Assembly: GCA_017608045.1 (NCBI GenBank) | Contig: JAFCGN010000005.1 | Span: 1 to 48,115 of the forward strand | DNA: 48,115 nt | Direction of reading: 5' to 3' | Source: Candidatus Parvarchaeota archaeon | Lineage (GTDB): Archaea; Nanobdellota; Nanobdellia; JAFCGN01 | Translations under genes and position numbers: made by a program | The notes under the pieces: model-generated | Seen by the model: only the letters and a program-made list of their open reading frames with translations | What the model was told of the DNA's origin: nothing | Databases searched by the model: none | Shown here: positions 19,060-48,115 of the stretch, one piece after another | Layout: every line of letters begins with the position of its first letter | Position numbering within the stretch: position 1 is the first letter of the stretch

Positions 19060-20952
19060 ATGAAAAAAATAGGTTTTGAAAAAATCTTCATTAAAGCATG
19101 CTATTATTCTTACAAATATTTCAAGTTTCTAAGTCCAAAAGAAAAAGAAAATTTTAGTAAAGAATTCAAAAGAGCACTTGAATTCTTGAATTGGGAGTAT
19201 AATGGAAAAAAAATAACTCCTAAAAAAGTAATTGTTCTTTCAAGAATTATTGGTTTAATCACTTTTTTTATTGGGTCTCTTGTTTTTTGGAATGGATTCA
19301 GTTTTATAAAACTTTTTTTCTTTTTTTTCCTTCCTTTTATAACAGCGCAGTTTATCACGGATTATCCAAAAAACAAAAGCAGTTTAAGAAAAATAAAATC
19401 ACTTTCAGAAATAAGCGATGTCTTGCTGAACTTAATCATAAGTTTAAAACAAAACCCGAATCTTGAAGAAGCCTTTTCTTTTGTTTCAAAACACAATCAA
19501 GGTGAGATTGGAAGAGATTTTAAAAGAGCGTTGTGGAAATGTTTAAGCGGACGCAAAAGCAATTTAAGAGAAGAAATGGATAAAATAGCAGAAAAATGGG
19601 GGTATTGGAGTGAGGGTTTTAAACGCTCCCTCTTTTTAATTGAAGCAAGTTTTAGTGAAAAAAACGAAGAAAAACGCAACAAAATTTTGGATAAAGCCCT
19701 TGAAATAACACTTGAAGACATAAACTATCAAATGACAAATTATTTAAATTCTTTAAAAATCCCAACACTCATATTATTTAGTTTTGGTACTGTTCTTCCA
19801 TTGCTTATTGTATCTCTTCTTCCATTGCTTGGATTTACAAGTGGCACAAGTTTAAGCATGCAACAAGTGGGTTTTTTGTTAATATCTTCGATTATTGCTA
19901 CTATTTTTTACTCTAATAACATAATTAGAAAAAGACCTGCAAGTTATTCTGAAATAAGACTTCCTGAAAAAATTCCTGGGTTGCCTAAAAAAGGATTTTT
20001 CAAATTAAGAAATAGGGTTTTCAATTCAAAATTTTACTCCATAATTATTTCAATTATTATTTGTGCACCAGGAATTCTTTTCCTGATTGATTATTACCCA
20101 TTTATAAGATTCTCAGGGTTGTTTTGGCAGTTCCTTTTGAAAGTTAACACATTAAGCATTGTTTTAGGAATAAGCGCAGGCATAAGCTTTTATTATTGGT
20201 CTATAAGTAAGGACAGAACAATTATTAGAAATAAAATAGATGAAATGGAGGAATCATTAATTGATGTTTTATACAAAATTGCTTCAAGAATGAGTGAAGG
20301 AAGGAGTCCTGAAGAGAGTGTTGAATGGACAGCTCATAATACCAAAGGAGGTTTGGAAGAACCACTTACAAGAGCAGTTTCTTTAATCAAAAAAAGGAAT
20401 ATGACTTTAAAACAAGCATTTTTTGATGAAAAAATAGGAGTATTAAACACGATATATTCAACAAGAATTAAAACTGTTTTTTCAATTTTCATAAGTTCTT
20501 GTAAGAAGGGGATTTCAAGTGCAAGCCAAATTTTATTTAACTTAAGCACGCAATTAGGAATAATTAAATCTTTAGACAAAAAACTTCGTCAAAATCTGAG
20601 TCAATCACTAAGCATGATGTATTTAACAGCAGTTTTTTTTGCACCAACTATTTGCGGACTTATTGTAACAATGCAACAATTAATAGGAAATAGTTTTGCT
20701 AAAGTAAGTTATCAATTATCAGGACAATTCAGTTTCTTAACTTTTAATTTCCAATCATTCAACACATACTTGCTCCAATTATTTGTTGGCTTTTATGTAA
20801 TAATCTTGAATTACCTTCTTGTTAAATATACTGTGATTATCCAGAATTCAGGAGATAAATTAATGATGCAAAAAAAACTTGGGAAATCAATAATAACAGG
20901 CACTATTGTGTATATTGTAAGTATAATCTTATCAGCTAAATTTTTCTTATAA
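19060..20952 (+). CDS. ArlJ/TadC-like type II secretion/type IV pilus assembly membrane protein (two T2SSF-like halves)
   Basis: 630 aa with two similar halves: SEISDVLLNLIISLKQNPNLEEAFSF and EESLIDVLYKIASRMSEGRSPEESVEW, each with hydrophobic spans. Confidence 0.8.
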   Translation: MKKIGFEKIFIKACYYSYKYFKFLSPKEKENFSKEFKRALEFLNWEYNGKKITPKKVIVLSRIIGLITFFIGSLVFWNGFSFIKLFFFFFLPFITAQFITDYPKNKSSLRKIKSLSEISDVLLNLIISLKQNPNLEEAFSFVSKHNQGEIGRDFKRALWKCLSGRKSNLREEMDKIAEKWGYWSEGFKRSLFLIEASFSEKNEEKRNKILDKALEITLEDINYQMTNYLNSLKIPTLILFSFGTVLPLLIVSLLPLLGFTSGTSLSMQQVGFLLISSIIATIFYSNNIIRKRPASYSEIRLPEKIPGLPKKGFFKLRNRVFNSKFYSIIISIIICAPGILFLIDYYPFIRFSGLFWQFLLKVNTLSIVLGISAGISFYYWSISKDRTIIRNKIDEMEESLIDVLYKIASRMSEGRSPEESVEWTAHNTKGGLEEPLTRAVSLIKKRNMTLKQAFFDEKIGVLNTIYSTRIKTVFSIFISSCKKGISSASQILFNLSTQLGIIKSLDKKLRQNLSQSLSMMYLTAVFFAPTICGLIVTMQQLIGNSFAKVSYQLSGQFSFLTFNFQSFNTYLLQLFVGFYVIILNYLLVKYTVIIQNSGDKLMMQKKLGKSIITGTIVYIVSIILSAKFFL

Positions 20953-21613: not shown

Positions 21614-23509
21614 TTATTTTTGTGGTTTGCTTACAGCATAAAGAAAACCTATTGAAACGCCAATTAAAAGCATTAAGGCTTGAACAAAAATCTGATTTTT
21701 ATCATTAACGCATACAATAGGTTCAACCCATACATTATTTTTTAAAATTTCTCCTTTTTCAGTCTCACTAAGCATTGCATTTATTATTTGGCTTGAAATT
21801 TTAGAATATTGTTTTGCGTAATTCAAAAAAATAAGTGCTTGTGCTGGTTGCGTCTCATTAAATGCTCCTGCATATTCAAGATAACTTATTGCAAGCAAAG
21901 GAACAACGCCGTTTTCTTCAACGTTTTCAATAAAAAATTTTACTTCATCTTCATCATCTTTTATTTTTTCAAAAAGCGTATCGTTTGTTAAACCTCTTGT
22001 TTCCATTGCAAGATTTGCTTCTGCTTTTGCTTCCAAAGATTCAAACAAAGCATATGCATACTCATTTTTTGAAAATGCATTGTTAGCATTCTCAAGATGT
22101 TTTTCTGCTTCTGATAAAAAAGCATCATTGCTTACAGTCTTAGCATACGCAATAGTGTTGCTTGCCTGCGTTATTCTGTCTAAAGAAAGATCCCTAAGTT
22201 TAGTATTATTGAAAGTTATGTTCATATTATTTGTAAAAAAATTAGTTAATCCCTCCCACTCCTCTGAAGTTAATATTCTTACTTGGGCAAACGATGCATA
22301 ATAAATTGCAGAAACATAATTATCATTATAATAATTTTTGTAAGCACTATCAAGCATTTTTTCTGCTTCCATTATCCTGTTTATTGCAATAACAATAGAT
22401 TCTACATCATTTATATCGTCAAAATTCCTTGTTTTTAAAAACTCATTTTCTTTACTTGTTATATTCTCTTTTAATTGGTCAAGCATTTTTTCCACAAATT
22501 GCGTGTTTTGAGAAACATAATAATTTAACAAATTACTTCCATAAGTTGAAGACACTAATGAATTAACTGCAAAACTTGCTCCAGAATAATATGCTTTCTT
22601 TTTATAAAAATCTCTTGCTTTTTCTAATTTTTCCATAGAATCATTAAGTAAGTTGTTAATTTCTTCAGAATGCAAATAAGATAATTTTGCAGAACTTAAG
22701 TTTGTTTCAAAAACATTTATCTTGTTTGAAGATTTTTCAATTAAATCTTCACACATAATTTTCATAATCTTAGAATAAAGATTTTTATCAATTTTTTTGA
22801 TATTATTTTTTTTAACAATTTTATGATTAGTAGCGTACTCATATGCTTCTTCCACTGTCCTAACAGGAGTTATGTTTAAATTCCAATTTTCTTTTGAATA
22901 GGATACTAAATCTATTGGAACTGTTTGTGTTTTTGCAATCAAGGGAGTTTGAGATAAAACATTTATTTTTTCAACATAAACAGTTTCCTGTCCCTGCGGT
23001 ATAAGCATTCTTGTTGCACCTTCTTTTGAAGCAGCCTCAGCTTTTGCAAGAAGCCCGCCAACAGGACCAATTGTGCCATCCGGATTGATGGTGCCTGTTA
23101 TCATAACATAAGGGTTTATTGAAACATTCGTGAGTGCTGACAAAGTTGCAACAGTCATAGCTGCTCCTGCACTCGGCCCTCCAATCATTGGAAACTCCCC
23201 CCTGATTACATAAAAAAAATCATATTTATCGCAATCAATATTTAAAATATCGCAACTAACTTCTTTGCTTAATCTTGCACTTGCTTGAGTATCTATTTCT
23301 GTTAAAGGCATTGTATCAACAAATATTCTGCCTGTTCCTTCCTTAACTTCTACTAATAAATCAGCAACAACTCCTTCTTCGTTTTCACCTACTTGTCTAA
23401 CACCAAGAATTTTAACATTCGCTTTTCTAACTTCTTGAGCGCTTGCAAAAGAAATTGCAAACAGAAAAAATAACACTATTATACCTGCTTTGTTCTTTTT
23501 TTTGCGCAT
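21614..23509 (-). CDS. Secreted/membrane-anchored S16 (Lon-like) protease without AAA+ domain
   Basis: Signal peptide IIVLFFLFAISFASA, GEFPMIGGPSAGAAMTVATLSAL, GTINPDGTIGPVGGLLAKAEAA, C-terminal TM. Confidence 0.85.
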   Translation of the reverse strand: MRKKKNKAGIIVLFFLFAISFASAQEVRKANVKILGVRQVGENEEGVVADLLVEVKEGTGRIFVDTMPLTEIDTQASARLSKEVSCDILNIDCDKYDFFYVIRGEFPMIGGPSAGAAMTVATLSALTNVSINPYVMITGTINPDGTIGPVGGLLAKAEAASKEGATRMLIPQGQETVYVEKINVLSQTPLIAKTQTVPIDLVSYSKENWNLNITPVRTVEEAYEYATNHKIVKKNNIKKIDKNLYSKIMKIMCEDLIEKSSNKINVFETNLSSAKLSYLHSEEINNLLNDSMEKLEKARDFYKKKAYYSGASFAVNSLVSSTYGSNLLNYYVSQNTQFVEKMLDQLKENITSKENEFLKTRNFDDINDVESIVIAINRIMEAEKMLDSAYKNYYNDNYVSAIYYASFAQVRILTSEEWEGLTNFFTNNMNITFNNTKLRDLSLDRITQASNTIAYAKTVSNDAFLSEAEKHLENANNAFSKNEYAYALFESLEAKAEANLAMETRGLTNDTLFEKIKDDEDEVKFFIENVEENGVVPLLAISYLEYAGAFNETQPAQALIFLNYAKQYSKISSQIINAMLSETEKGEILKNNVWVEPIVCVNDKNQIFVQALMLLIGVSIGFLYAVSKPQK

Positions 23510-38131: not shown

Positions 38132-38959
38132 TTACTCAAAAACAGCTCTTCCTTTTATCATGAAAGACCATTTTATTGGCAGACTTATTACTTCTGTTCT
38201 TACACATTTATTATATAAGCAATACCCGCTTAATCCCTTATCAGTAATGCAGCTTGTATAAGATGTTGCAGGTATATGCTCGCATCTTGTGCCATAACAA
38301 TGTTCGGCATTAATTTTTTTGCAAACGCATGCGCCTGTAGCTATATTTCCCCTGTTGCATGTATCTTTAAAAGTATATGATTCAAACAAAAAAGAACTGC
38401 AACCATCATTAAAAACACAAGAAAATGTGCCTATTTTAGCATCATCAATATATTCGCAATTATTTGATTCAACTTCGTATCCTGCAGGGCATATGCAAAA
38501 TGGTTTTTTTTCTCCATCTTCTTCTATGCCTGTTTTTATGCAAGGTTTTGTTGCACTTTCATCATTAAAAACGCATGAAGAACTTTTTTGCGTGCAAGCA
38601 TAATCTGTTTGTCCTTCTTGCGGAAGAATAGTTACTGCGTGACATACTCCTTCAATTCTGTAAGGGTCCACCTCATATTCTGTATTAGCACTTATGCAAA
38701 TATCTTTCGTGCATGGATTATTATCGTCACAATCATTTGAAGAAAGACATTCTATTGTAGCACTCGTGTCTGGATTACAAGTTATACTGCAAGTGCTTTC
38801 AGTGCAAGGAAGAGCAAAATTAACTAATTGATTCTGATTAAAAGTTTTAATTATGGAAATGCTGTTTTTGTTAAAAGCAAATGAAAGAATGAGCGTGATT
38901 GCAATAAATAAAATCCCTACTTGAACAAACCAAATTTTTTTCTTAATCTTATTTAACAA
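38132..38959 (-). CDS. Cys-rich membrane-anchored extracellular protein
   Basis: N-terminal TM; CLSSNDCDDNNPCTKDICISANTEYEVDP, many Cys. Confidence 0.7.
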   Translation of the reverse strand: MLNKIKKKIWFVQVGILFIAITLILSFAFNKNSISIIKTFNQNQLVNFALPCTESTCSITCNPDTSATIECLSSNDCDDNNPCTKDICISANTEYEVDPYRIEGVCHAVTILPQEGQTDYACTQKSSSCVFNDESATKPCIKTGIEEDGEKKPFCICPAGYEVESNNCEYIDDAKIGTFSCVFNDGCSSFLFESYTFKDTCNRGNIATGACVCKKINAEHCYGTRCEHIPATSYTSCITDKGLSGYCLYNKCVRTEVISLPIKWSFMIKGRAVFE

Positions 38960-40818
38960 TTACTATCACCTTCATTAGCAGAACAATCAAAATCATTATC
39001 AACAGGTTCTTTATGTATCCCCTCACCACTGCAAACAATGTTAGAATCTCCAATAAGAATAGCACACCCTGTGTGTTGTTCATTAGTATTTGTTACATAA
39101 TGCACTACTTCAAACCCATCTTTTAAGCATTGTTCTGCATTAAGCTCTTTTGTATTATCATTATCAACATAATAATTATCATTAATGCAAGCGTAATCAT
39201 CGCAATTTAATTCTGTGCCAAGAGTACACACCCCCCCGCAATCTGTTTCTACTTCTCCATCATCTATTAAATTATTATAACAACTTTGCGTTGCTGTAAT
39301 ACAAGTCATTCCTTCACTGAGATCGCAGGAAAAAGAATTGCAGGTTTTCCCTGTAACAGAATCTGTGTAAGTTAAGCCCTGACATTCTGCTGTAGCATTT
39401 ATATCCATAATGTTTATATTCCATGTTATTCCTGCTGTTTTCCTATTTAATTGCTCTTCAAACGAGTAAAATTCAGGGCTTGTTATTTCATCAATCAGGT
39501 CTTTTATAATTGCTTGATTTACAACTCTTATTGTGTATTCTTCACAAGTTAATCCTTTTTCAAAATTACCTTGGTCTTCATCCCCGCATTTTTCAACAGT
39601 GCATAAAGACCCGTCTTCAGCAACATTTCTTTTATTTGAATATGAACTATCATAAACAACAAATAATTGTTCAGATTCATCTCCATAACCATTAAAAAAC
39701 CTCCATGTGTTTGAAGAACCCCCTTCTAATTTCCCCACATTTGTTCTTGCGCAAGGAAGTCGTGTTACTTGTGTTTTATCATCATTTATATAAAATTCAT
39801 CAGGACAATCTCCACTAAAATGCTCGTTGCAAAAATCACTTGCTTCATCTCCAGTTAATTCTAATTTGTTAGAAACTATGCTTAAAAATGCACTCCTCCA
39901 ATCATATTTAGCATAACACCTCCTCCCATAATCTTTTGTTTGCCCGCAAGTTGTTAAAGCAATCATGAATTTCCCATACCTTGAACTCAAATAATTCTTT
40001 ATTGCATAATCAATCCATGGGTCATCTTCATCACCGTACTCTCCTTGAACAAAATCTTTAGCAAGCACATACATCTTAAGCAATTCATTAAAATCCTTCA
40101 CTTTAATTGTTGTTGTAAAAGTATAATTTATGATTTTATTATCATTAACAGAATAACTTATTGTTTGTTCTACTAAATTTTTTGGAATAAAAGCAATCTC
40201 AAGATACCATCCAGGGGAATAACTATTCTCAATTGTTAAAGAATCATCATAATAAAAATTAGTAATTTTCGCTTCATAATTTATGCAATCAGTTGGAGGT
40301 ATGTTAGTATTCAGTTCATGCAATCTTGAACAAACATTATCATCCGCCTTATTAAAATAAGTATTCAAATATTTTTCTAATGTGCCAATAATCTCATCAA
40401 TTGTTGGAACACACACTTTATCATAATTCCTCCAATAGGGGAAAGTATCTTCAGGAATAAAATCTTGAGTTTTAAAGAGATTGTTATTTGAATCAAGATA
40501 TTCAGGTATTACTGAGGATTTAGTGCTGTAAAAACCGCATCCTACATCATTATTTATTATTCCACCCCTGCTTCCTGTCATAAAAGAAGCGTAATCTGTT
40601 GCATATGTTCTTTCTTGGTCTTCAAGATATTTTATTTGCTCAGAAGAACCAATAGATTCTCCAACATATTGTTTTATGGTTGAGGTTCTGCCAACAGTAG
40701 AGTCTAAATAAAAAACCCCGCCTATTGCTAAACCAATCATCATTATTTGAGCAAACATTATTAAATACTCTTCAGCACCTTTTTTATTCAATTTAACTAA
40801 CCTCTTCACCCTTGTCAA
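38953..40818 (-). CDS. Pilin-like large extracellular protein with Cys-rich C-terminus
   Basis: VKLNKKGAEEYLIMFAQIMMIGLAIGGVFYL leader/helix; CYNNLIDDGEVETDCGGVC. Confidence 0.7.
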   Translation of the reverse strand: MTRVKRLVKLNKKGAEEYLIMFAQIMMIGLAIGGVFYLDSTVGRTSTIKQYVGESIGSSEQIKYLEDQERTYATDYASFMTGSRGGIINNDVGCGFYSTKSSVIPEYLDSNNNLFKTQDFIPEDTFPYWRNYDKVCVPTIDEIIGTLEKYLNTYFNKADDNVCSRLHELNTNIPPTDCINYEAKITNFYYDDSLTIENSYSPGWYLEIAFIPKNLVEQTISYSVNDNKIINYTFTTTIKVKDFNELLKMYVLAKDFVQGEYGDEDDPWIDYAIKNYLSSRYGKFMIALTTCGQTKDYGRRCYAKYDWRSAFLSIVSNKLELTGDEASDFCNEHFSGDCPDEFYINDDKTQVTRLPCARTNVGKLEGGSSNTWRFFNGYGDESEQLFVVYDSSYSNKRNVAEDGSLCTVEKCGDEDQGNFEKGLTCEEYTIRVVNQAIIKDLIDEITSPEFYSFEEQLNRKTAGITWNINIMDINATAECQGLTYTDSVTGKTCNSFSCDLSEGMTCITATQSCYNNLIDDGEVETDCGGVCTLGTELNCDDYACINDNYYVDNDNTKELNAEQCLKDGFEVVHYVTNTNEQHTGCAILIGDSNIVCSGEGIHKEPVDNDFDCSANEGDSNC

Positions 40819-41359
40819 TAATGTAAAGTATGATTGCTTGTTTTTCTTGATTCCTTAAATAAGGACTGAACAACTCCACTCTGCAATTAGTTGCAGTTCC
40901 ATAAACATTTAAGTTTCTCCTATTTGCTGAATATTTATCAATAAAATCTTGGGCTTCCAAACATTCATCAGCAAGACAAATATAAAAATCTGCCTTCTCA
41001 TTAAAAGCAGGCATTAAGCGTATTATGTCAAGTGAATCCTCCCATGGAAGTGAACTTCCTTCTATTTCACCATTTTCATCAATTGATATGTTATAAAATT
41101 CTAAAAGATTATTATAATTCAAGTCATCAGATAAAACAAAACCCGTAGTCCCTCTTCTTGAATAATCTCCAGAAAGAATATTGTTAAGAATTGTTTGGCA
41201 TGATAATTGCACTGATTTATCAATTTTACCAATTGTTGCTGTCCCTGTCATTGATTTCATAGCTACTCTGTAAGCAATGATTAAAGATACAGAAATTAAC
41301 ATAAATATAGCAATACCTAATGGACTTGTTGCTTTTTTTGATTTCATATTTTCACGCAT
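40793..41359 (-). CDS. Pilin-like protein
   Basis: MKSKKATSPLGIAIFMLISVSLIIAYRVAMKS. Confidence 0.65.
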   Translation of the reverse strand: MRENMKSKKATSPLGIAIFMLISVSLIIAYRVAMKSMTGTATIGKIDKSVQLSCQTILNNILSGDYSRRGTTGFVLSDDLNYNNLLEFYNISIDENGEIEGSSLPWEDSLDIIRLMPAFNEKADFYICLADECLEAQDFIDKYSANRRNLNVYGTATNCRVELFSPYLRNQEKQAIILYIIDKGEEVS

Positions 41360-41391
41360 ATTATTTTTTATTCATTTTATTTACTAATTTT

Positions 41392-42630
41392 TTATGTTTG
41401 TTCATAAGGATCATAATCTTCTGGGTTATAATTAAAATAACTTGTTAAATAAAAATCCCCGTAATGTTCAGTGCCGTCTTCAAATCTAATCTTGATTGGA
41501 TAATGTATGTCAAAAGGAAGGCAGTAATCGTTTTCGTCATCACCGCACACACCATTATTATAGAACCATTTTTGTTCTGTCTGCGCATCAAAAATCTCTA
41601 CTTCAAAAATAATCTCTCCTTTATACGGCACTTCTTTTTCATCATAACAATATTCAATATCAGGGTCCCAATTATAACCATTGCTTTCACAATCATTCTC
41701 ATTATCATAATTTTCAACTGCCTGTTTTAAAGTCATACCCTTGTTAATAAACATGTTCGCGCATTCAAATCCAATATTTATTGGAAAGTTTCTTGCTATT
41801 TGATAATTGTTTCCAATCCCCCCAAAACTCAAACCACTTAATTCATAAGAAGAATCTGTTGGACTGTCCCCTTCAGGCTTTTTAAGTGCTACAATTGCAT
41901 ACCTGTAATTCTTCGGAAAAACTTCGTTATTATCATACGTCCCTGTTCCTGTTGCTTCTACAACCTCCCAATCAACACCATCAACGGAAAGAAAAATGTA
42001 AAAAGAAGTGTCCCCGCCATCAATTTTGTTCATTGTTAAGACAACTGATGAAACCTCATTATTTTTACCCAAGTCAAACATTAACCAATCTGAAAAATCA
42101 TACATTTTATCATTCTTTAAGTATTCACAATAATAATTGGAATTATACGAAACTCTTTTCATAGCATACGGGCAATATTCAAGCAATCTTCCGTTATTAG
42201 AATCCGGGTGATACAAGGATTTAAAAACAAATCCATTGCTTCCTTGTATTTTTTCCAATAATTCTTCATCTGTTTCATCATTGTAATTTACTAAAATACT
42301 TGAAATAGTTTTTGGCACGCCTGCTGCATTATTTTTTTTAATTAATAATTTTCTCGCGTCAATAATGCCTGGATAAATTCTTCTATATTCTATAACATTG
42401 TCTTCTATAGGAGAGTAAAGATAAGAAAGTCCTTCATAAGCAAGACAATCAGCAGAATTAATCATCCTATCTGCTAAAAGCAAACTAATGCCTCTTGTTT
42501 GAGAATAGCCGAGCACAATATTGAAGTTCCCCATATTTTGGTATAATATAAGCGTGATTAGAGAGAAAATAACTACTGAACTCATTGTTAAAAAAATTGT
42601 TGGAATTGAAATCGCTGCTTTTTTACTCAC
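41392..42630 (-). CDS. Pilin-like protein with F5/8-type-C (discoidin)-like segment
   Basis: MSKKAAISIPTIFLTMSSVVIFSLITLIL; DWLMFDLGKNNEVSSVVLTMN...FYIFLSVDGVDWEVVEATGTGTYDNNEVFPKNYRYAIVAL. Confidence 0.65.
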   Translation of the reverse strand: MSKKAAISIPTIFLTMSSVVIFSLITLILYQNMGNFNIVLGYSQTRGISLLLADRMINSADCLAYEGLSYLYSPIEDNVIEYRRIYPGIIDARKLLIKKNNAAGVPKTISSILVNYNDETDEELLEKIQGSNGFVFKSLYHPDSNNGRLLEYCPYAMKRVSYNSNYYCEYLKNDKMYDFSDWLMFDLGKNNEVSSVVLTMNKIDGGDTSFYIFLSVDGVDWEVVEATGTGTYDNNEVFPKNYRYAIVALKKPEGDSPTDSSYELSGLSFGGIGNNYQIARNFPINIGFECANMFINKGMTLKQAVENYDNENDCESNGYNWDPDIEYCYDEKEVPYKGEIIFEVEIFDAQTEQKWFYNNGVCGDDENDYCLPFDIHYPIKIRFEDGTEHYGDFYLTSYFNYNPEDYDPYEQT

Positions 42631-43700
42631 TTAGCAACCACCTCAATAGTTTCTCCAATAACATTTATATCAAACTCGTAAACATAATTTATTTTATCTA
42701 AAATCTTATCATCTGCATTGCTAAAATCAAAGGAGAATTCATAATCATCGCAGTAAGAGTTTTTAAAAACTTCTTTCAAATTAATACAATATTTTTCATA
42801 TGAAAGATAATCTTGCGGTTTAGAAGGACTATTAATAACACTAATTTTTTTAAAATGCCCCCATTCAATGATATTCCCATCAGAATCAGTAACATCTTGT
42901 GTTTTTGTAAAAAAGTATTCATTAACGCAAAAAGTGTTATCATTATTAGAACTTAAATAAAATTTCCAAACAGGAAGCGAAATCCTCGCATTAAAACTTG
43001 TTTTTCTTCCGTTTATTCCTGAACCGCAGTAATTTTTACTTATTTTGTTCAAAAAACCATTTAAGGAAGTGTCTTCACCATTAATAACATAATAATTAGG
43101 GCAGAGAGTATCCATTATTTCTCTTTGTTTTGTAAAAGTTATTTCTCCCGTATCCGCATCTATTCTACTGAAAGGAGTGTTCTCTTTTATTATATCATAA
43201 GTTCTATGAATTCCAAAATTATTTTCTTCTTTTCCACAAGTATCTTTTTTGTTGGCAACAAACCAAAAATTCAAATTTTCATTAAGATACTTTTCATTTT
43301 TAAGAACATCATAATTTACTTCAATCAAACCATGACCTTCATTATTATACAAGGATGAAGAAAAACTGGAATCAATATTAGGGTTTGTCATTTCATTATC
43401 AAAGCCTTGAACTGCATTTGGAGTTATTTTAATACTATTTATTCTTATTTTATTGTCACTGCAATAATACTTTTTTTCTTCCTTATCCCAAGAACATCCT
43501 GTTGGAGGAGTATAAACTAAAGAAATGTCTTCTGGAGAAGAATAAAGAGAATTCATTATGTTTTCAACATCCAAAGCAAAATAAATAGCGGGTTTATTAT
43601 CTTGAAAAGCTACATTTAAAACATAACCCCCAATATTGATGCTGCTCACTAAAAACAATCCTGCAATTACCAAATTTGAGAGCATAGTTAGAGTTTCCAT
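42627..43700 (-). CDS. Hypothetical pilin-like/membrane-anchored extracellular protein
   Basis: METLTMLSNLVIAGLFLVSSINIGGYV; overlaps next gene by 4 nt. Confidence 0.65.
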   Translation of the reverse strand: METLTMLSNLVIAGLFLVSSINIGGYVLNVAFQDNKPAIYFALDVENIMNSLYSSPEDISLVYTPPTGCSWDKEEKKYYCSDNKIRINSIKITPNAVQGFDNEMTNPNIDSSFSSSLYNNEGHGLIEVNYDVLKNEKYLNENLNFWFVANKKDTCGKEENNFGIHRTYDIIKENTPFSRIDADTGEITFTKQREIMDTLCPNYYVINGEDTSLNGFLNKISKNYCGSGINGRKTSFNARISLPVWKFYLSSNNDNTFCVNEYFFTKTQDVTDSDGNIIEWGHFKKISVINSPSKPQDYLSYEKYCINLKEVFKNSYCDDYEFSFDFSNADDKILDKINYVYEFDINVIGETIEVVAK

Positions 43701-43703
43701 TTT

Positions 43704-44615
43704 TCAAACACTTCCAAGAGTCATAGCAATATTCGGGGTGTCTTTTATTCTATCAAAATTAAATCTTCTCACATTTATTCCATTTTCTTTATAAACCCAT
43801 AGCAAGAGATTATCATCACTATCACTACTAAAATCAGAGTAACTTTTGCCTGAAAGAAAAACAGGCATTGTATGAGTTTCAGAATTTTCATATGTCATAA
43901 AAGTTGTTATTGGAGAACAAGTAATGTATTCAAAGACATCAGCACTATTATAATCAACATGATTTACTCCTAAAAATTCCACGCAAAACTTATTAGAAGC
44001 ATCCTTAATCGTGTTAAAATAAGTTTCAGTATATGTTGTTGGTTTATTAAAAGTTATTGAAGAAACATAATTATTTGCTTTTTCTTGAACTTCAACACCA
44101 CTCAAATCTAATATGTTTAAACCATTGTTTAAATCTACGGGGTTTCCAAAAAAATTAATATCTTCAGGATTTTGTTTTAATTTGGCAAAGCACACGCAAA
44201 AAACGCCTTTGCATGTTTCAGCATAATTTTCTCTTTCTGATTTTTGATAGAGTTTGTTATCATAAAAATTTTGCAAAACATCAAGACAAGAATAAGGAGG
44301 TGGGAGTTTCTTGTTTAAAAGAATTTGTTCTAATTGAACATCATTTGTTGAAACTCTTTCATCAGAACCATAAATTTGAAACATGATAAAATTCTCAGGA
44401 AAACTTATTGATCCTGTGCCATAACTCGTTCTTGACTCTGTTGATACCTCTTTTGACGCTAAATTTATTGGAACAATTATTCCCTTCATTATGCCTGAAA
44501 TTCCTGCTTCTGTCAAATTTGTCATTTGAGAGATTATAACCATGAATCCAAAAACCACGGGAAGTACAAAAATAAGAATCACACCCACAACTTTAATCAT
44601 CATTTTTGGTATCAT
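43704..44615 (-). CDS. Membrane-anchored extracellular protein, tandem paralogue A
   Basis: N-terminal TM; MFQIYGSDERVS, SCLDVLQNFYDNK, CKGVFCVCFAKLK, KFCVEFLGVN, DVFEYITCSPI. Confidence 0.68.
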   Translation of the reverse strand: MIPKMMIKVVGVILIFVLPVVFGFMVIISQMTNLTEAGISGIMKGIIVPINLASKEVSTESRTSYGTGSISFPENFIMFQIYGSDERVSTNDVQLEQILLNKKLPPPYSCLDVLQNFYDNKLYQKSERENYAETCKGVFCVCFAKLKQNPEDINFFGNPVDLNNGLNILDLSGVEVQEKANNYVSSITFNKPTTYTETYFNTIKDASNKFCVEFLGVNHVDYNSADVFEYITCSPITTFMTYENSETHTMPVFLSGKSYSDFSSDSDDNLLLWVYKENGINVRRFNFDRIKDTPNIAMTLGSV

Positions 44616-44671
44616 TTTCTCATCTAATATATACTAACTTTTTATTAATAAATAATTAGTTAAATACACTA

Positions 44672-45586
44672 TCAGTCCCATAGATTAAAATCAATTTTTA
44701 TTTGAGGGTTTTCTAAAACATGTGTGAAAAAAGTGTTTATGACATTAATTTTTTCAGGAAAATAATTATATTGGAGAACACTTAAAGTGTATGTTGAAGG
44801 AAGGTTTTCCCCATTTTCTTCTTTTTCTATTCCTGTAACAAAATAAGCGCTTCTCCCTTTATAGTCCTTTGCATTTATTGGATAACAATAAATTGCATCA
44901 AAAACATCTTCAGGAAATAAATTTTCTTCATTAACTCCTAAAAATTCAACACATAAATTACTGGATGCGTTTGCTATATATGAGTAGGAATAATCATCCT
45001 TTAAATCTTCAGTTGGAATTTTAATTTGTGAAAAAAACATTCCTTTTGAATTATACCCGTATTCTCTTTGTTGAGCATAAAAATCAGTGTTATCAGAAAG
45101 CCAAGAAAATGGCAGGGTCTCAGAATAAGCACCTCCACTTTTTTCCTGCCATCCTTCTTTCAAATAAACAATGCAATTACAGAATTTGTTTTCACAATCA
45201 GAAGCTAAACTCTCATTAGTTATTTTTTTTGTAAGAAAGTATTGTAGCACAGAATAACAACTCTTCTCTGGTTTTTGTGGATCACTCCCCACCCATTCAT
45301 CACAGTCTGAACCAAAGCAAACATTTGGGTGAATAAAAAACTCATTATTGTGTGAGTATTCATGAGAACCATAAATTTGAATCCACACTCTTTCTTTTTC
45401 AAATAAAGTATCTGGTGCTGATGATTGCGTGCTTACTGCGTCAAAAGAATTAAAGTATTTATTATATCTTGCATTTTCATCACTATCAAAAAGTCCGACA
45501 ATATTAATTATTGCAAAAACAATACCAACTAAGACAATAACTCCAATTAAGGTATTCATTATTGTTGTTAAAGATACATCTACCAA
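44672..45586 (-). CDS. Membrane-anchored extracellular protein, tandem paralogue B
   Basis: N-terminal TM; WIQIYGSHEYSH, SCYSVLQYFLTKK, CENKFCNCIVYLKEG, NLCVEFLGVN, DVFDAIYCYPI. Confidence 0.68.
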   Translation of the reverse strand: MVDVSLTTIMNTLIGVIVLVGIVFAIINIVGLFDSDENARYNKYFNSFDAVSTQSSAPDTLFEKERVWIQIYGSHEYSHNNEFFIHPNVCFGSDCDEWVGSDPQKPEKSCYSVLQYFLTKKITNESLASDCENKFCNCIVYLKEGWQEKSGGAYSETLPFSWLSDNTDFYAQQREYGYNSKGMFFSQIKIPTEDLKDDYSYSYIANASSNLCVEFLGVNEENLFPEDVFDAIYCYPINAKDYKGRSAYFVTGIEKEENGENLPSTYTLSVLQYNYFPEKINVINTFFTHVLENPQIKIDFNLWD

Positions 45587-45597
45587 AACCTACACCT

Positions 45598-45753
45598 TTA
45601 TGTATACCCTTCACCTATGTTTATTAATTGCTCTCCAGCAGGTTTAATTCCAGAATATACAAGATAAAGCAAGAAAACAAGCACAACTAAAGCAAGAATT
45701 ATTGTTATAATTGTTTCCCAAGTCATGCTGATTGCTTTCTTATTCATTGCCAT
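45598..45753 (-). CDS. Micro-pilin-like protein (51 aa; below ORF-track cutoff)
   Basis: Read directly: MAMNKKAISMTWETIITIILALVVLVFLLYLVYSGIKPAGEQLINIGEGYT*. Confidence 0.72.
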   Translation of the reverse strand: MAMNKKAISMTWETIITIILALVVLVFLLYLVYSGIKPAGEQLINIGEGYT

Positions 45754-45816
45754 AAAAAATAAAGGAACTCTTATCTTATTAATTTAATGTTATTTAAAAA
45801 AAAATAAAAAATTTTT

Positions 45817-46317
45817 TTAACTCCATGCAGGGTTAAATGTAAGTTCTGAACACTCTAAACTTCCTTGGCTTGTTTCAATAGTTGTTTCTACTGCATCTGC
45901 AGGTATTGAAATTGTTCTTCCTTCATCGTTTGTGAAAGTGCATGGCTCTCCAATAGTCTCTCCATAACAATGCCTTGCTTCATTTCCTTGTCCAAGTTCT
46001 TTACTTAAATCAAAGGTTTTTGTGCAATACTTATGTTTATTAAATTGGGTTCTTGTGGGTTGAATTGTTTTCAAATCATTGCAATATGATTGACAAGAAA
46101 TTTTTGCTTGGCTCAGCGTGCTTGGAGCAGTTCCTCCAATAATATTGGAAAATCCTTGAAAAATATTTCCTCCTCCTGTCACCCACATTGCTGACATAAC
46201 AATAAGAACAAGTAATGCTAATGCACCAAGAACAAGAGTATTCATTGGCAATCCTTGAGCGTTTTTCATAAGCATTATTATGTTAATTAAACTTTTATTA
46301 TTTTTGGTTTTTAACAA
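45817..46317 (-). CDS. Pilin-like protein with Cys-containing ectodomain
   Basis: MKNAQGLPMNTLVLGALALLVLIVMSAMWVTGGG; start likely at the internal MKNAQG. Confidence 0.7.
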   Translation of the reverse strand: MLKTKNNKSLINIIMLMKNAQGLPMNTLVLGALALLVLIVMSAMWVTGGGNIFQGFSNIIGGTAPSTLSQAKISCQSYCNDLKTIQPTRTQFNKHKYCTKTFDLSKELGQGNEARHCYGETIGEPCTFTNDEGRTISIPADAVETTIETSQGSLECSELTFNPAWS

Positions 46318-46320
46318 TTT

Positions 46321-46500
46321 TTAAGGAAGGTAATCTTTTATTGATTGTTTTCCTATAGAATTATTAACTAAATCAACTAATTTTTGCGGTCCAGAAATTG
46401 AAATAAAAATAACAAGCAAGAGCACTGCAATTGTTAATGAAATTATTAATGCAAGAGTTCTTTGCGTCATACTTTTTCTTGATTTTATTAAATTTTTCAT
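46321..46500 (-). CDS. Micro-pilin-like protein (59 aa; below ORF-track cutoff)
   Basis: Read directly: MKNLIKSRKSMTQRTLALIISLTIAVLLLVIFISISGPQKLVDLVNNSIGKQSIKDYLP*. Confidence 0.7.
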   Translation of the reverse strand: MKNLIKSRKSMTQRTLALIISLTIAVLLLVIFISISGPQKLVDLVNNSIGKQSIKDYLP

Positions 46501-46501
46501 T

Positions 46502-46651
46502 CTAACCGCCTAAAAAAATGCTTCTCATCTCATTCAACAAATCTTCTCCTTTTCCTTTAAGCAAAACAATGATCAAGACAGCAGCAGTTGCAGCAACAAC
46601 AGCGAGTATTACTTTAAACAATGTTTCAACAGTTAAATCCCCTTTTTTCAT
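46502..46651 (-). CDS. Micro-pilin-like protein (49 aa; below ORF-track cutoff)
   Basis: Read directly: MKKGDLTVETLFKVILAVVAATAAVLIIVLLKGKGEDLLNEMRSIFLGG*; start overlaps upstream stop (ATGA). Confidence 0.72.
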   Translation of the reverse strand: MKKGDLTVETLFKVILAVVAATAAVLIIVLLKGKGEDLLNEMRSIFLGG

Positions 46652-48115
46652 ACTGAATGAACCACCTTAAAGTTTTTTACCATATTCACGCAATTCCCTG
46701 CGTCATTATTTATTAAATCGCAAATCATATAGGTTATGGTATAAGTTTCATCTATTTTAAATCCTAAGGAAATTGGCAAATACTTTATGAGAACTTTTTT
46801 TCCATAATAATCCGTTAAAGTAAAACCACAAGAAAGTGCATCGCTGCAAGAAAAAATTTCATTGTTTATGCTATCAACTATTCTTGCAGAAGTAATAGTT
46901 GAATCCTCATCAACACTAATTATAATAGGTATTTTACCTCTTGTAAGAACTTTTGGTGTTGGAAAATTATAATTTGAAAGCATTTGTGAATAATATATTG
47001 TGGGTTGATTTTCTAAATTAAGAGCTTGCCATATAAAAACTGGTCTTTTATTATTATCTGAAATAGGTGTTAAAACGAAATTGTCTGCACCACTATTTAT
47101 TGAAATCTCACCACTTTTAATAAGAGAAAAACTTTCAAGATTAAATACATCGTATTTTATTTTATTTTCATTTAATAAAAGCCATGCTATCAAAACTTTC
47201 TCACTTGAATCAGAATAATAACCAACACGTATGCTTTTTGGAATTCCAGAAATAATTTCCACTTCATTTAAATTATCTAAATCGTTTAAATTATCAACAA
47301 AAACACTATAAAGTTTTGTTTCAGAAGATAATGATTTTTGAACTAAAATAATGTTTTTGTTTATGTCAAAAGTAAGTGTTATTATATTAACAACATCATT
47401 AAAATTAACATTTTTTACTAAATTCCCTTCTTCATCAAAAACATTTAATTTGTTATTTGCATTATCAAAATAGATTATGTAATTTTTATAATTTATTTGA
47501 AGAATTGCTGGTTTAACTGTCATATACGGATAATTTATACTAATTGTGTTTGTGCCATCAAAATATTTGATTTCCTGACTTTTGTAAGAATAAGTGATTT
47601 GATTATCTATTTCTACTTGGTCTAAGTATTGATTAGCATAAGAATCAGGTGGTTGTATTTCTTTCTCAGAAATAGTTCCATCAGAACTAACAGAATATTG
47701 ATTAATTAATTTTAATCCATTCGTTCCTTTTTTCTCAGCATCAACAGTGACAACAACATTATCTTGTTTTTCAGAAAGAAAAGCATCATTTGCAATAATA
47801 TTTACGTCACTAATTGAAGCAAAATCACTCCAACTGCTTAAAACACCTTCCCACCCAGAACTTAAGCAAACAATTGTATATTGGTCTTGCCCACTACCTA
47901 TGGTAATTTCATCATTAACATTATAACACTCACCATTATAAACGCAATTCACTGAACAACAAATCCTTGAAGTTTCTCCAGGAAAAGAATAACAACCACC
48001 AACAGCGCATTCATAATCATTTGAACAAACTTCCCCATTACTCTTCTGTTCTAACCAATCACCATCAACGCAATAATAACCTGAATAAGCAGTACTACCA
48101 ACATCATAACAAGCA
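46648..48115 (-). CDS. Partial large extracellular protein (N-terminus outside window), Cys-rich segment plus beta-rich repeats
   Basis: Track begins at a GTG (47952), but the frame is open to the edge: ACYDVGSTAYSGYYCVDGDWLEQKSNGEVCSNDYECAVGGCYSFPGETSRICCSVNCVYNGECYNVND... Confidence 0.75.
   Translation of the reverse strand, partial: ACYDVGSTAYSGYYCVDGDWLEQKSNGEVCSNDYECAVGGCYSFPGETSRICCSVNCVYNGECYNVNDEITIGSGQDQYTIVCLSSGWEGVLSSWSDFASISDVNIIANDAFLSEKQDNVVVTVDAEKKGTNGLKLINQYSVSSDGTISEKEIQPPDSYANQYLDQVEIDNQITYSYKSQEIKYFDGTNTISINYPYMTVKPAILQINYKNYIIYFDNANNKLNVFDEEGNLVKNVNFNDVVNIITLTFDINKNIILVQKSLSSETKLYSVFVDNLNDLDNLNEVEIISGIPKSIRVGYYSDSSEKVLIAWLLLNENKIKYDVFNLESFSLIKSGEISINSGADNFVLTPISDNNKRPVFIWQALNLENQPTIYYSQMLSNYNFPTPKVLTRGKIPIIISVDEDSTITSARIVDSINNEIFSCSDALSCGFTLTDYYGKKVLIKYLPISLGFKIDETYTITYMICDLINNDAGNCVNMVKNFKVVHSV

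Follow-up and report, generated by a model that had tools for sequence, protein, structure and literature searches.

An ordered run of pilin-like genes on a Parvarchaeota contig as the probable downstream part of a Nanobdellia type IV filament operon

Archaeal type IV pili of clades 1 to 4 combine an assembly ATPase, a FlaJ/TadC platform protein, pilins and a prepilin peptidase, and their complex clades also contain numerous minor pilins as well as adhesins of a PilY-like or Cys-rich kind; the 2016 census of them was almost without DPANN archaea and found no pilins for a nanoarchaeal ATPase clade (Makarova, Koonin, Albers, PMC4858521). For DPANN genomes, islands of "dark matter" genes with signal peptides that adjoin a FlaI-type ATPase and TadC/FlaJ were later stated in general terms to be probably diverse pilins (Makarova, Wolf, Koonin 2019, PMC6393860, Fig. 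2A); that paper treats these islands in one figure panel and two sentences and defines neither the families and their order nor the spread across the class, the major pilin or the adhesin slot. The Parvarchaeales paper reported only PilA-type arCOGs. In bacteria, type IVa minor-pilin operons with PilY1 encode a series of minor pilins in set order, whose ectodomains vary, and a large adhesin that is in some cases a beta-propeller, and the episymbiotic Saccharibacteria bind their host by the type IV pilus T4P-2 with PilX2 (PMC12206443). In this study we analyzed a stretch of 48,115 bp (the window), which is the complete contig C3 of G000, the 775-kb, 20-contig draft genome of a Candidatus Parvarchaeota archaeon (G denotes a genome, with G000 for the window genome, C a contig and L a locus stretch). 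Twelve consecutive minus-strand open reading frames at positions 38132 to 48114 very probably represent the downstream part of one archaeal type IV filament operon of a Nanobdellia type, with a small Cys-rich major pilin, ordered minor pilins and a secreted tip adhesin. Its most likely function is adhesion to other cells or surfaces.

An initial annotation of the window had described at least 12 tightly packed minus-strand genes with overlaps at 46648/46651, 42627/42630, 40793/40818, and 38953/38959, all of which are present in the sequence (Table 1); the intergenic spacing ranges from −26 to +63 bp. The 26-bp overlap 40793/40818 probably vanishes, because TTG at 40791 (LNKKGAEEYL) is the better start of the 621-aa gene, whose counterpart in a sister genome of the same genus (G001:C1, locus L013) begins with MNKKG. 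Starts were also corrected for the 166-aa gene (to about 150 aa, MKNAQGLPMN) and the 188-aa gene (MKSKKA). The eight genes encoding the 275-, 621-, 188-, 412-, 357-, 303-, 304-, and 51-aa proteins are kept in order and orientation in the sister, with 71 to 90% identity where measured, which indicates that the run is genuine coding sequence. In both genomes the run is then followed by genes for Alba, an FKBP-type isomerase, and FtsZ. Cysteine makes up 3.2% of the residues encoded in the run and 1.0% in the remainder of the window. Leaders were judged by eye and by regular expression, and canonical [K/R]-[G/A/S] leaders were found in 6 of the 12 proteins (49, 51, 166, 188, 412, and 621 aa). The leader of the 166-aa protein is better read as MKNA/QGLPMN (the slash marks the presumed cleavage site), because Gln is invariant at position +1 in 22 homologues.

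The initial annotation had also noted the lack of an ATPase, a platform protein and a peptidase. This holds true for positions 38132 to 48115, where no ATPase, FlaJ, or peptidase gene is found, but not for the locus, whose motor genes are located at the end of contig C20 and, in relatives, directly upstream of the run. The last gene of C3 is cut at 48115, so that the contig stops inside the operon, and the apparent lack of ATPase and platform protein is an assembly artefact, because the window is a whole contig ending at this point. A search of G000 for GspE-type ATPases gave five clear matches. The right end of C20 (L017) contains genes for a 762-aa ATPase, a 709-aa FlaJ, and a pilin-like, Cys-rich protein of 156 aa, after which a further pilin-like gene runs off the contig end. 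The ATPase matched NCBIfam FlaI (E 1.7e-36) and, in the PDB, AfGspE (2oap, E 1.6e-27) as well as CpaF and FlaI. With 126 bits it stays far under the cut-off of 550 of the FlaI equivalog model NF058587, and with 72 bits far under the cut-off of 1000 of the BasE model NF053672, in agreement with the earlier view that the locus is neither an archaellum nor a bindosome. FlaH and FlaF/G/X gave no match in general Pfam scans of the run, in which no dedicated search for them was made. A prepilin peptidase of family PF01478 is encoded at G000:C12:81729-82049 (E 3e-17, 62 bits versus a cut-off of 26.5); a PF06847 peptidase was not found.

In four relatives the ATPase, FlaJ, and counterparts of the window genes stand uninterrupted (L035/L049, Candidatus Jingweiarchaeum tengchongense; L038/L050, Parvarchaeota archaeon CSMAG_1072, with the gene order of the window; L040/L051; L041/L052). 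The order in L038 is ATPase, FlaJ, and proteins of 159, 578, 471, 49, 58, 129 (QGLP pilin), 47, 51, 257, 219, 821, 274, 139, 937, and 1107 aa, and that of C20 followed by C3 is ATPase, FlaJ, 156 aa, the cut pilin-like gene, at least 488, 49, 59, 166, 51, 304, 303, 357, 412, 188, 621, and 275 aa. This gene order argues strongly that C20 and C3 would join into one operon. Homology of the cut C20 gene and of the C3 488-aa protein, whose 5′ end is cut by the contig end, to their positional counterparts was undetectable, and the latter protein had no sequence match to relatives. On the 5′ side of the ATPase, C20 matches L050 to L052 in three multi-helix proteins of 170 to 220 aa followed by two divergent genes (about 220 and 135 aa). 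The whole upstream stretch L017:1-8146 (G000:C20:40000-48145) encodes a coiled-coil protein of at least 990 aa, a 727-aa protein, the three multi-helix proteins (174 to 193 aa), and the two small divergent genes; the last five of these, which are kept in L050 to L052, could belong to the same system.

The distribution of the operon was examined in a survey set of 378 genomes from 248 genera of the class (Nanobdellia/Nanoarchaeia). Four families with clear motifs, P357, P412, P188, and P621, were built from alignments, and across the class the 357-412-188-621-aa block is found again in order, together with a pilin of the QGLP type. Since this order is also kept in the sister, the run is beyond chance. 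The P412 profile matched 134 of the 378 genomes and 93 of the 248 genera, many of the matches being weak on their own, and the long FlaJ profile matched 362 genomes. In 27 of about 66 comparable pairs, P412 was located no more than 25 kb downstream of a full-length FlaJ, with both genes on one contig and one strand, compared to about 1 to 2% expected for uniform or random placement; the pairs were tallied by hand from both match lists, and as the genomes are related, a binomial value is only indicative. The co-location extends to about 17 families, with at least 27 genomes. Eight further genomes were inspected, and in seven of them (G173, G221, G117, G020, G046, G085, G243) pilin-like genes occupy the space from FlaJ to P412, namely genes for micro-pilins, for QGLP-type pilins, and for pilin-like proteins of larger size. 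In the eighth, G033 (L174-L175), the four families and a large secreted protein stand together about 10 to 26 kb from FlaJ, without QGLP pilins. In one family (L042, L045, L165, L167, L172) only the P357-P412-P188-P621 block and the large secreted protein stand together, and several genomes contain tandem QGLP pilin copies. When GTDB was scanned with FlaJ, 155 loci were obtained, and nearly all of the 80 listed come from organisms named Woesearchaeota, Nanoarchaeota, Nanoarchaeia, Parvarchaeota, or Jingweiarchaeum. In a small tree the C20 FlaJ groups with those of Jingweiarchaeum and CSMAG_1072, and FlaJ proteins from named Woesearchaeota group together, which fits a mostly vertical descent. 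A lack of conservation of the cluster, which the initial annotation had named as an argument against its proposal, does not apply, as conservation is strong. The original assignment as a pilin or surface-appendage locus is supported.

The components of an archaeal type IV filament system are present, namely an assembly ATPase (adjacent to the run in L049 to L052 and, across the contig gap, presumably linked to it in G000), FlaJ, a peptidase, and subunits with class III leaders and a helix. The leader motif, K or R followed by G, A, or S and, after the presumed cleavage site, Q, is found in P188, P621, and the QGLP pilins, and nearly all members carry a prepilin leader. Profiles built from the 166- and 51-aa pilins turned within four rounds into a generic prepilin-leader profile (107 to 135 members) and were kept only as markers of pilin-like N termini. 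The QGLP pilin has a conserved QGLPxNxIV start, with Q5, C59, and C110 invariant in the 22 homologues, and in its AlphaFold (AF2) model (mean pLDDT 77.5) the N-terminal helix is predicted with confidence and the head is small and of an alpha/beta type. In the minor-pilin families the N-terminal helix region is conserved and the ectodomains vary, with sizes across relatives of about 140 to 1286 aa for P357 and about 170 to 1236 aa for P621. The terminal gene of the relatives encodes a secreted protein of 465 to 1970 aa, in some cases with PKD, beta-propeller, FG-GAP, or MopE-type repeats; the 275-aa protein of the window resembles a Sec-secreted Cys-rich protein. In the proposed mechanism, the C12 peptidase would trim the short basic leaders, and the C20 ATPase, acting on FlaJ, would extrude the subunits from the membrane. 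The shaft would consist of the small Cys-rich QGLP pilin, the ordered set 304/303-357-412-188-621 would prime the filament and form its tip, and the terminal secreted multi-domain protein would be the tip adhesin, in a role like that of PilY1 in bacterial type IVa pili. Together these steps follow the general plan of type IV pili. Trimming and ATP-driven extrusion are suggested by gene homology; the shaft, tip, and adhesin roles are suggested by gene order, leaders, and domain content.

Several observations weigh against a filament operon of this kind. The ends of C20 and C3 have no 15-mer in common in their last 400 bp, and bridging the gap via the sister failed: the sister contig stops in the same region, and a C20-type FlaJ is missing from the sister assembly. 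In many Woesearchaeota-type genomes the run (about 15 genes in L159, L160, and L171) is separate from the ATPase/FlaJ pair, so that we infer their pairing there. The initial annotation had assigned a short leader and one helix to most of the proteins; the leaders it quoted are in the sequence, but no classical class III leader accompanies the N-terminal helix of the 303-, 304-, and 357-aa proteins, and the 275-aa protein looks Sec-secreted. Foldseek found no PDB neighbour for the head of the 150-aa QGLP pilin (best E 2.3, which is meaningless), the AlphaFold model of the 412-aa protein (pLDDT 44) was discarded, and the P412 profile had no match among PDB sequences. Because the P412 model failed and the pilin head is without a PDB match, the argument for a pilin fold comes only from the N-terminal helix. 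With regard to adhesion, the match of the P412 insert to a discoidin-like domain (Pfam E 5e-6) is just under the cut-off, and the filament itself is predicted from the genes.

The variety of small pilins, among which a single major pilin has few copies, and the large secreted proteins whose genes close the operon would also be expected of a pseudopilus that secretes proteins with a piston like that of the type II secretion system (T2SS), the Cys-rich and PKD proteins being its cargo. However, archaea have no outer membrane for a secretin, and the tandem QGLP pilins of several genomes suit a filament shaft better; adhesion is preferred over secretion for these two reasons. In addition, scans of the run proteins with Pfam and NCBIfam models gave no T2SS-specific match, nor one for a pilin, a minor pilin, or PilY1, and we regard a pseudopilus as unlikely. 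Pilus-mediated DNA import has been proposed for other DPANN archaea (PMC9563170), and a DNA-uptake filament might feed nucleic acids to cells with reduced biosynthesis, but the ComEC-family channel (PF03772) was found in none of 19 genomes (the window genome and 18 relatives), with control bacteria positive, a weak argument as archaea may use other channels. Adhesion is preferred because of this result, and DNA uptake appears very unlikely.

The separation of the run from ATPase and FlaJ in part of the class and the three members without a class III leader could also mean that the clustered genes encode surface or S-layer proteins with a single helix each, which build no filament, and that ATPase and FlaJ serve another pilus. 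This is highly improbable in view of the fixed gene order and FlaJ co-location described above, the conserved prepilin leaders, and the presence of a prepilin peptidase. An adhesive type IV filament remains the preferred reading.

Compared to the described systems, the filament operon differs from archaeal clades 1 to 4 in that its run proteins match no pilin model of Pfam or NCBIfam. The bacterial type IVa operons and the Saccharibacteria T4P-2 resemble it in plan alone, as no sequence relation was found. The other pilus loci of G000 itself, on C17 and C11, likewise contain GspE-type ATPases with FlaJ and pilins, but their ATPases are shorter (502 to 577 aa), FlaJ is split in two genes, and the pilins are PilA-like or of a "YGWAILI" type; these are separate systems. 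The 775-kb genome has three such loci, each with its own ATPase: L014 (C17:70000-89999), L015 (C11), and L016 (C17:117000-136000). The description of the locus as undescribed has to be qualified by the general statement on diverse pilins in PMC6393860 cited above; in the open-access literature, to which our search was confined (subscription papers and preprints lay outside it), no paper was found that defines these families, their order, their spread, or the operon.

Two single-contig genomes of the class, G007 (605,887 bp) and G019 (668,961 bp), which we presume, as a lead only, to be Nanopusillus acidilobi and Nanobdella aerobiophila, possess a second long FlaJ. About nine pilin-like genes, one of them for a QELP/QEMP pilin, come directly after this FlaJ (L194, L195). 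In these genomes (L193 and L194 in G007, L195 and L196 in G019), one long FlaJ stands with an ATPase and no pilins, and the other with the pilin run and no ATPase. In profile-profile comparisons of this type of run with the window minor-pilin families, only the QELP pilin and a 253-aa pilin matched (95%, to the QGLP pilin), and the rest stayed below 50%. The whole minor-pilin set is not claimed for these runs, as its families are unrecognisable there by profile comparison. The ArlJ-like gene noted earlier at 19060 of the window is a divergent 630-aa FlaJ/ArlJ-like gene (19060-20952, plus strand) with no ATPase beside it; in the small tree it groups with the second FlaJ from the Nanobdella-like genomes, both on long branches. 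Cryo-electron tomography of N. aerobiophila showed archaella, a second, rough appendage of 15 nm ("its identity is unknown"), and an attachment organelle (PMC11104419); for its relative YN1, the paper names archaellum genes only (PMC11420986). We tentatively suggest that the class-wide pilin operon might encode host-contact structures of Nanobdellota, either the 15-nm appendage of N. aerobiophila or parts of its attachment organelle and tube.

DPANN archaea account for a large share of archaeal diversity, most of it uncultured, and are presumed to live on other cells. The archaea that carry the cluster are tiny and probably depend on a host. One ordered operon of about 12 to 15 pilins that occurs in many families of the class and is invisible to Pfam and NCBIfam provides named candidates for the contact machinery. 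Its recurrence as an ordered cluster makes it testable as a machine for holding on to other cells, and as genomes that seem to belong to cultivated Nanobdellota contain a divergent copy, the question can be addressed by proteomics and cryo-electron microscopy.

Table 1. Genes of the pilin-like run in the window, listed from the contig end in the direction of transcription
Feature	Position	Strand	Remark
Surface protein, at least 488 aa	46648..48114	-	Position matches 471-aa pilin-like gene of L038 (positional inference only); no Pfam match
49-aa micro-pilin, leader MKKG/DLTVE	46502..46651	-	Matches same-position 49-aa gene of L038, E 4e-5
59-aa micro-pilin	46321..46500	-	Matches L038 58-aa and L040 59-aa genes, E ~4e-4
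150-aa candidate major pilin, MKNA/QGLPMNTLV..., Cys-rich head	45817..46269	-	22 homologues; family widespread in class
51-aa micro-pilin, NKKA/ISMTWE	45598..45753	-	Sister copy 90% identical
304-aa minor-pilin-like protein (family P304)	44672..45586	-	Paralogue of 303-aa protein
303-aa minor-pilin-like protein	43704..44615	-	Sister copy 83% identical
357-aa putative minor pilin, P357 (LYSxPE...YxxPxxCxW)	42627..43700	-	Family alignment
412-aa putative minor pilin, P412 (RLxSSxDCFAYE...RVxPGVIDxxK)	41392..42630	-	Discoidin-like insert, residues 175-236
183-aa putative minor pilin, P188 (KSKKA/TSPLG)	40793..41344	-	Open reading frame 188 aa when begun at 41359
~612-aa putative minor pilin, P621 (NKKG/AEEYLIMF; E..YLxxxERxYaxDxA)	38953..40791	-	Cys-rich C terminus
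275-aa Cys-rich protein (8.7% Cys)	38132..38959	-	Occupies slot of secreted adhesin-like 465-1970-aa protein in relatives

Outside the pilin run, positions 21614-23509 of the window (minus strand) encode a protein of 631 aa that contains a Lon-type S16 protease domain and has hydrophobic helices at its N-terminal and C-terminal ends. In the Woesearchaeota-type loci L053, L061, L080, and L168, the ATPase/FlaJ pair and, in one genome, the pilin run are located a few kilobases from a gene recognised by eye as glycyl-tRNA-synthetase-like.

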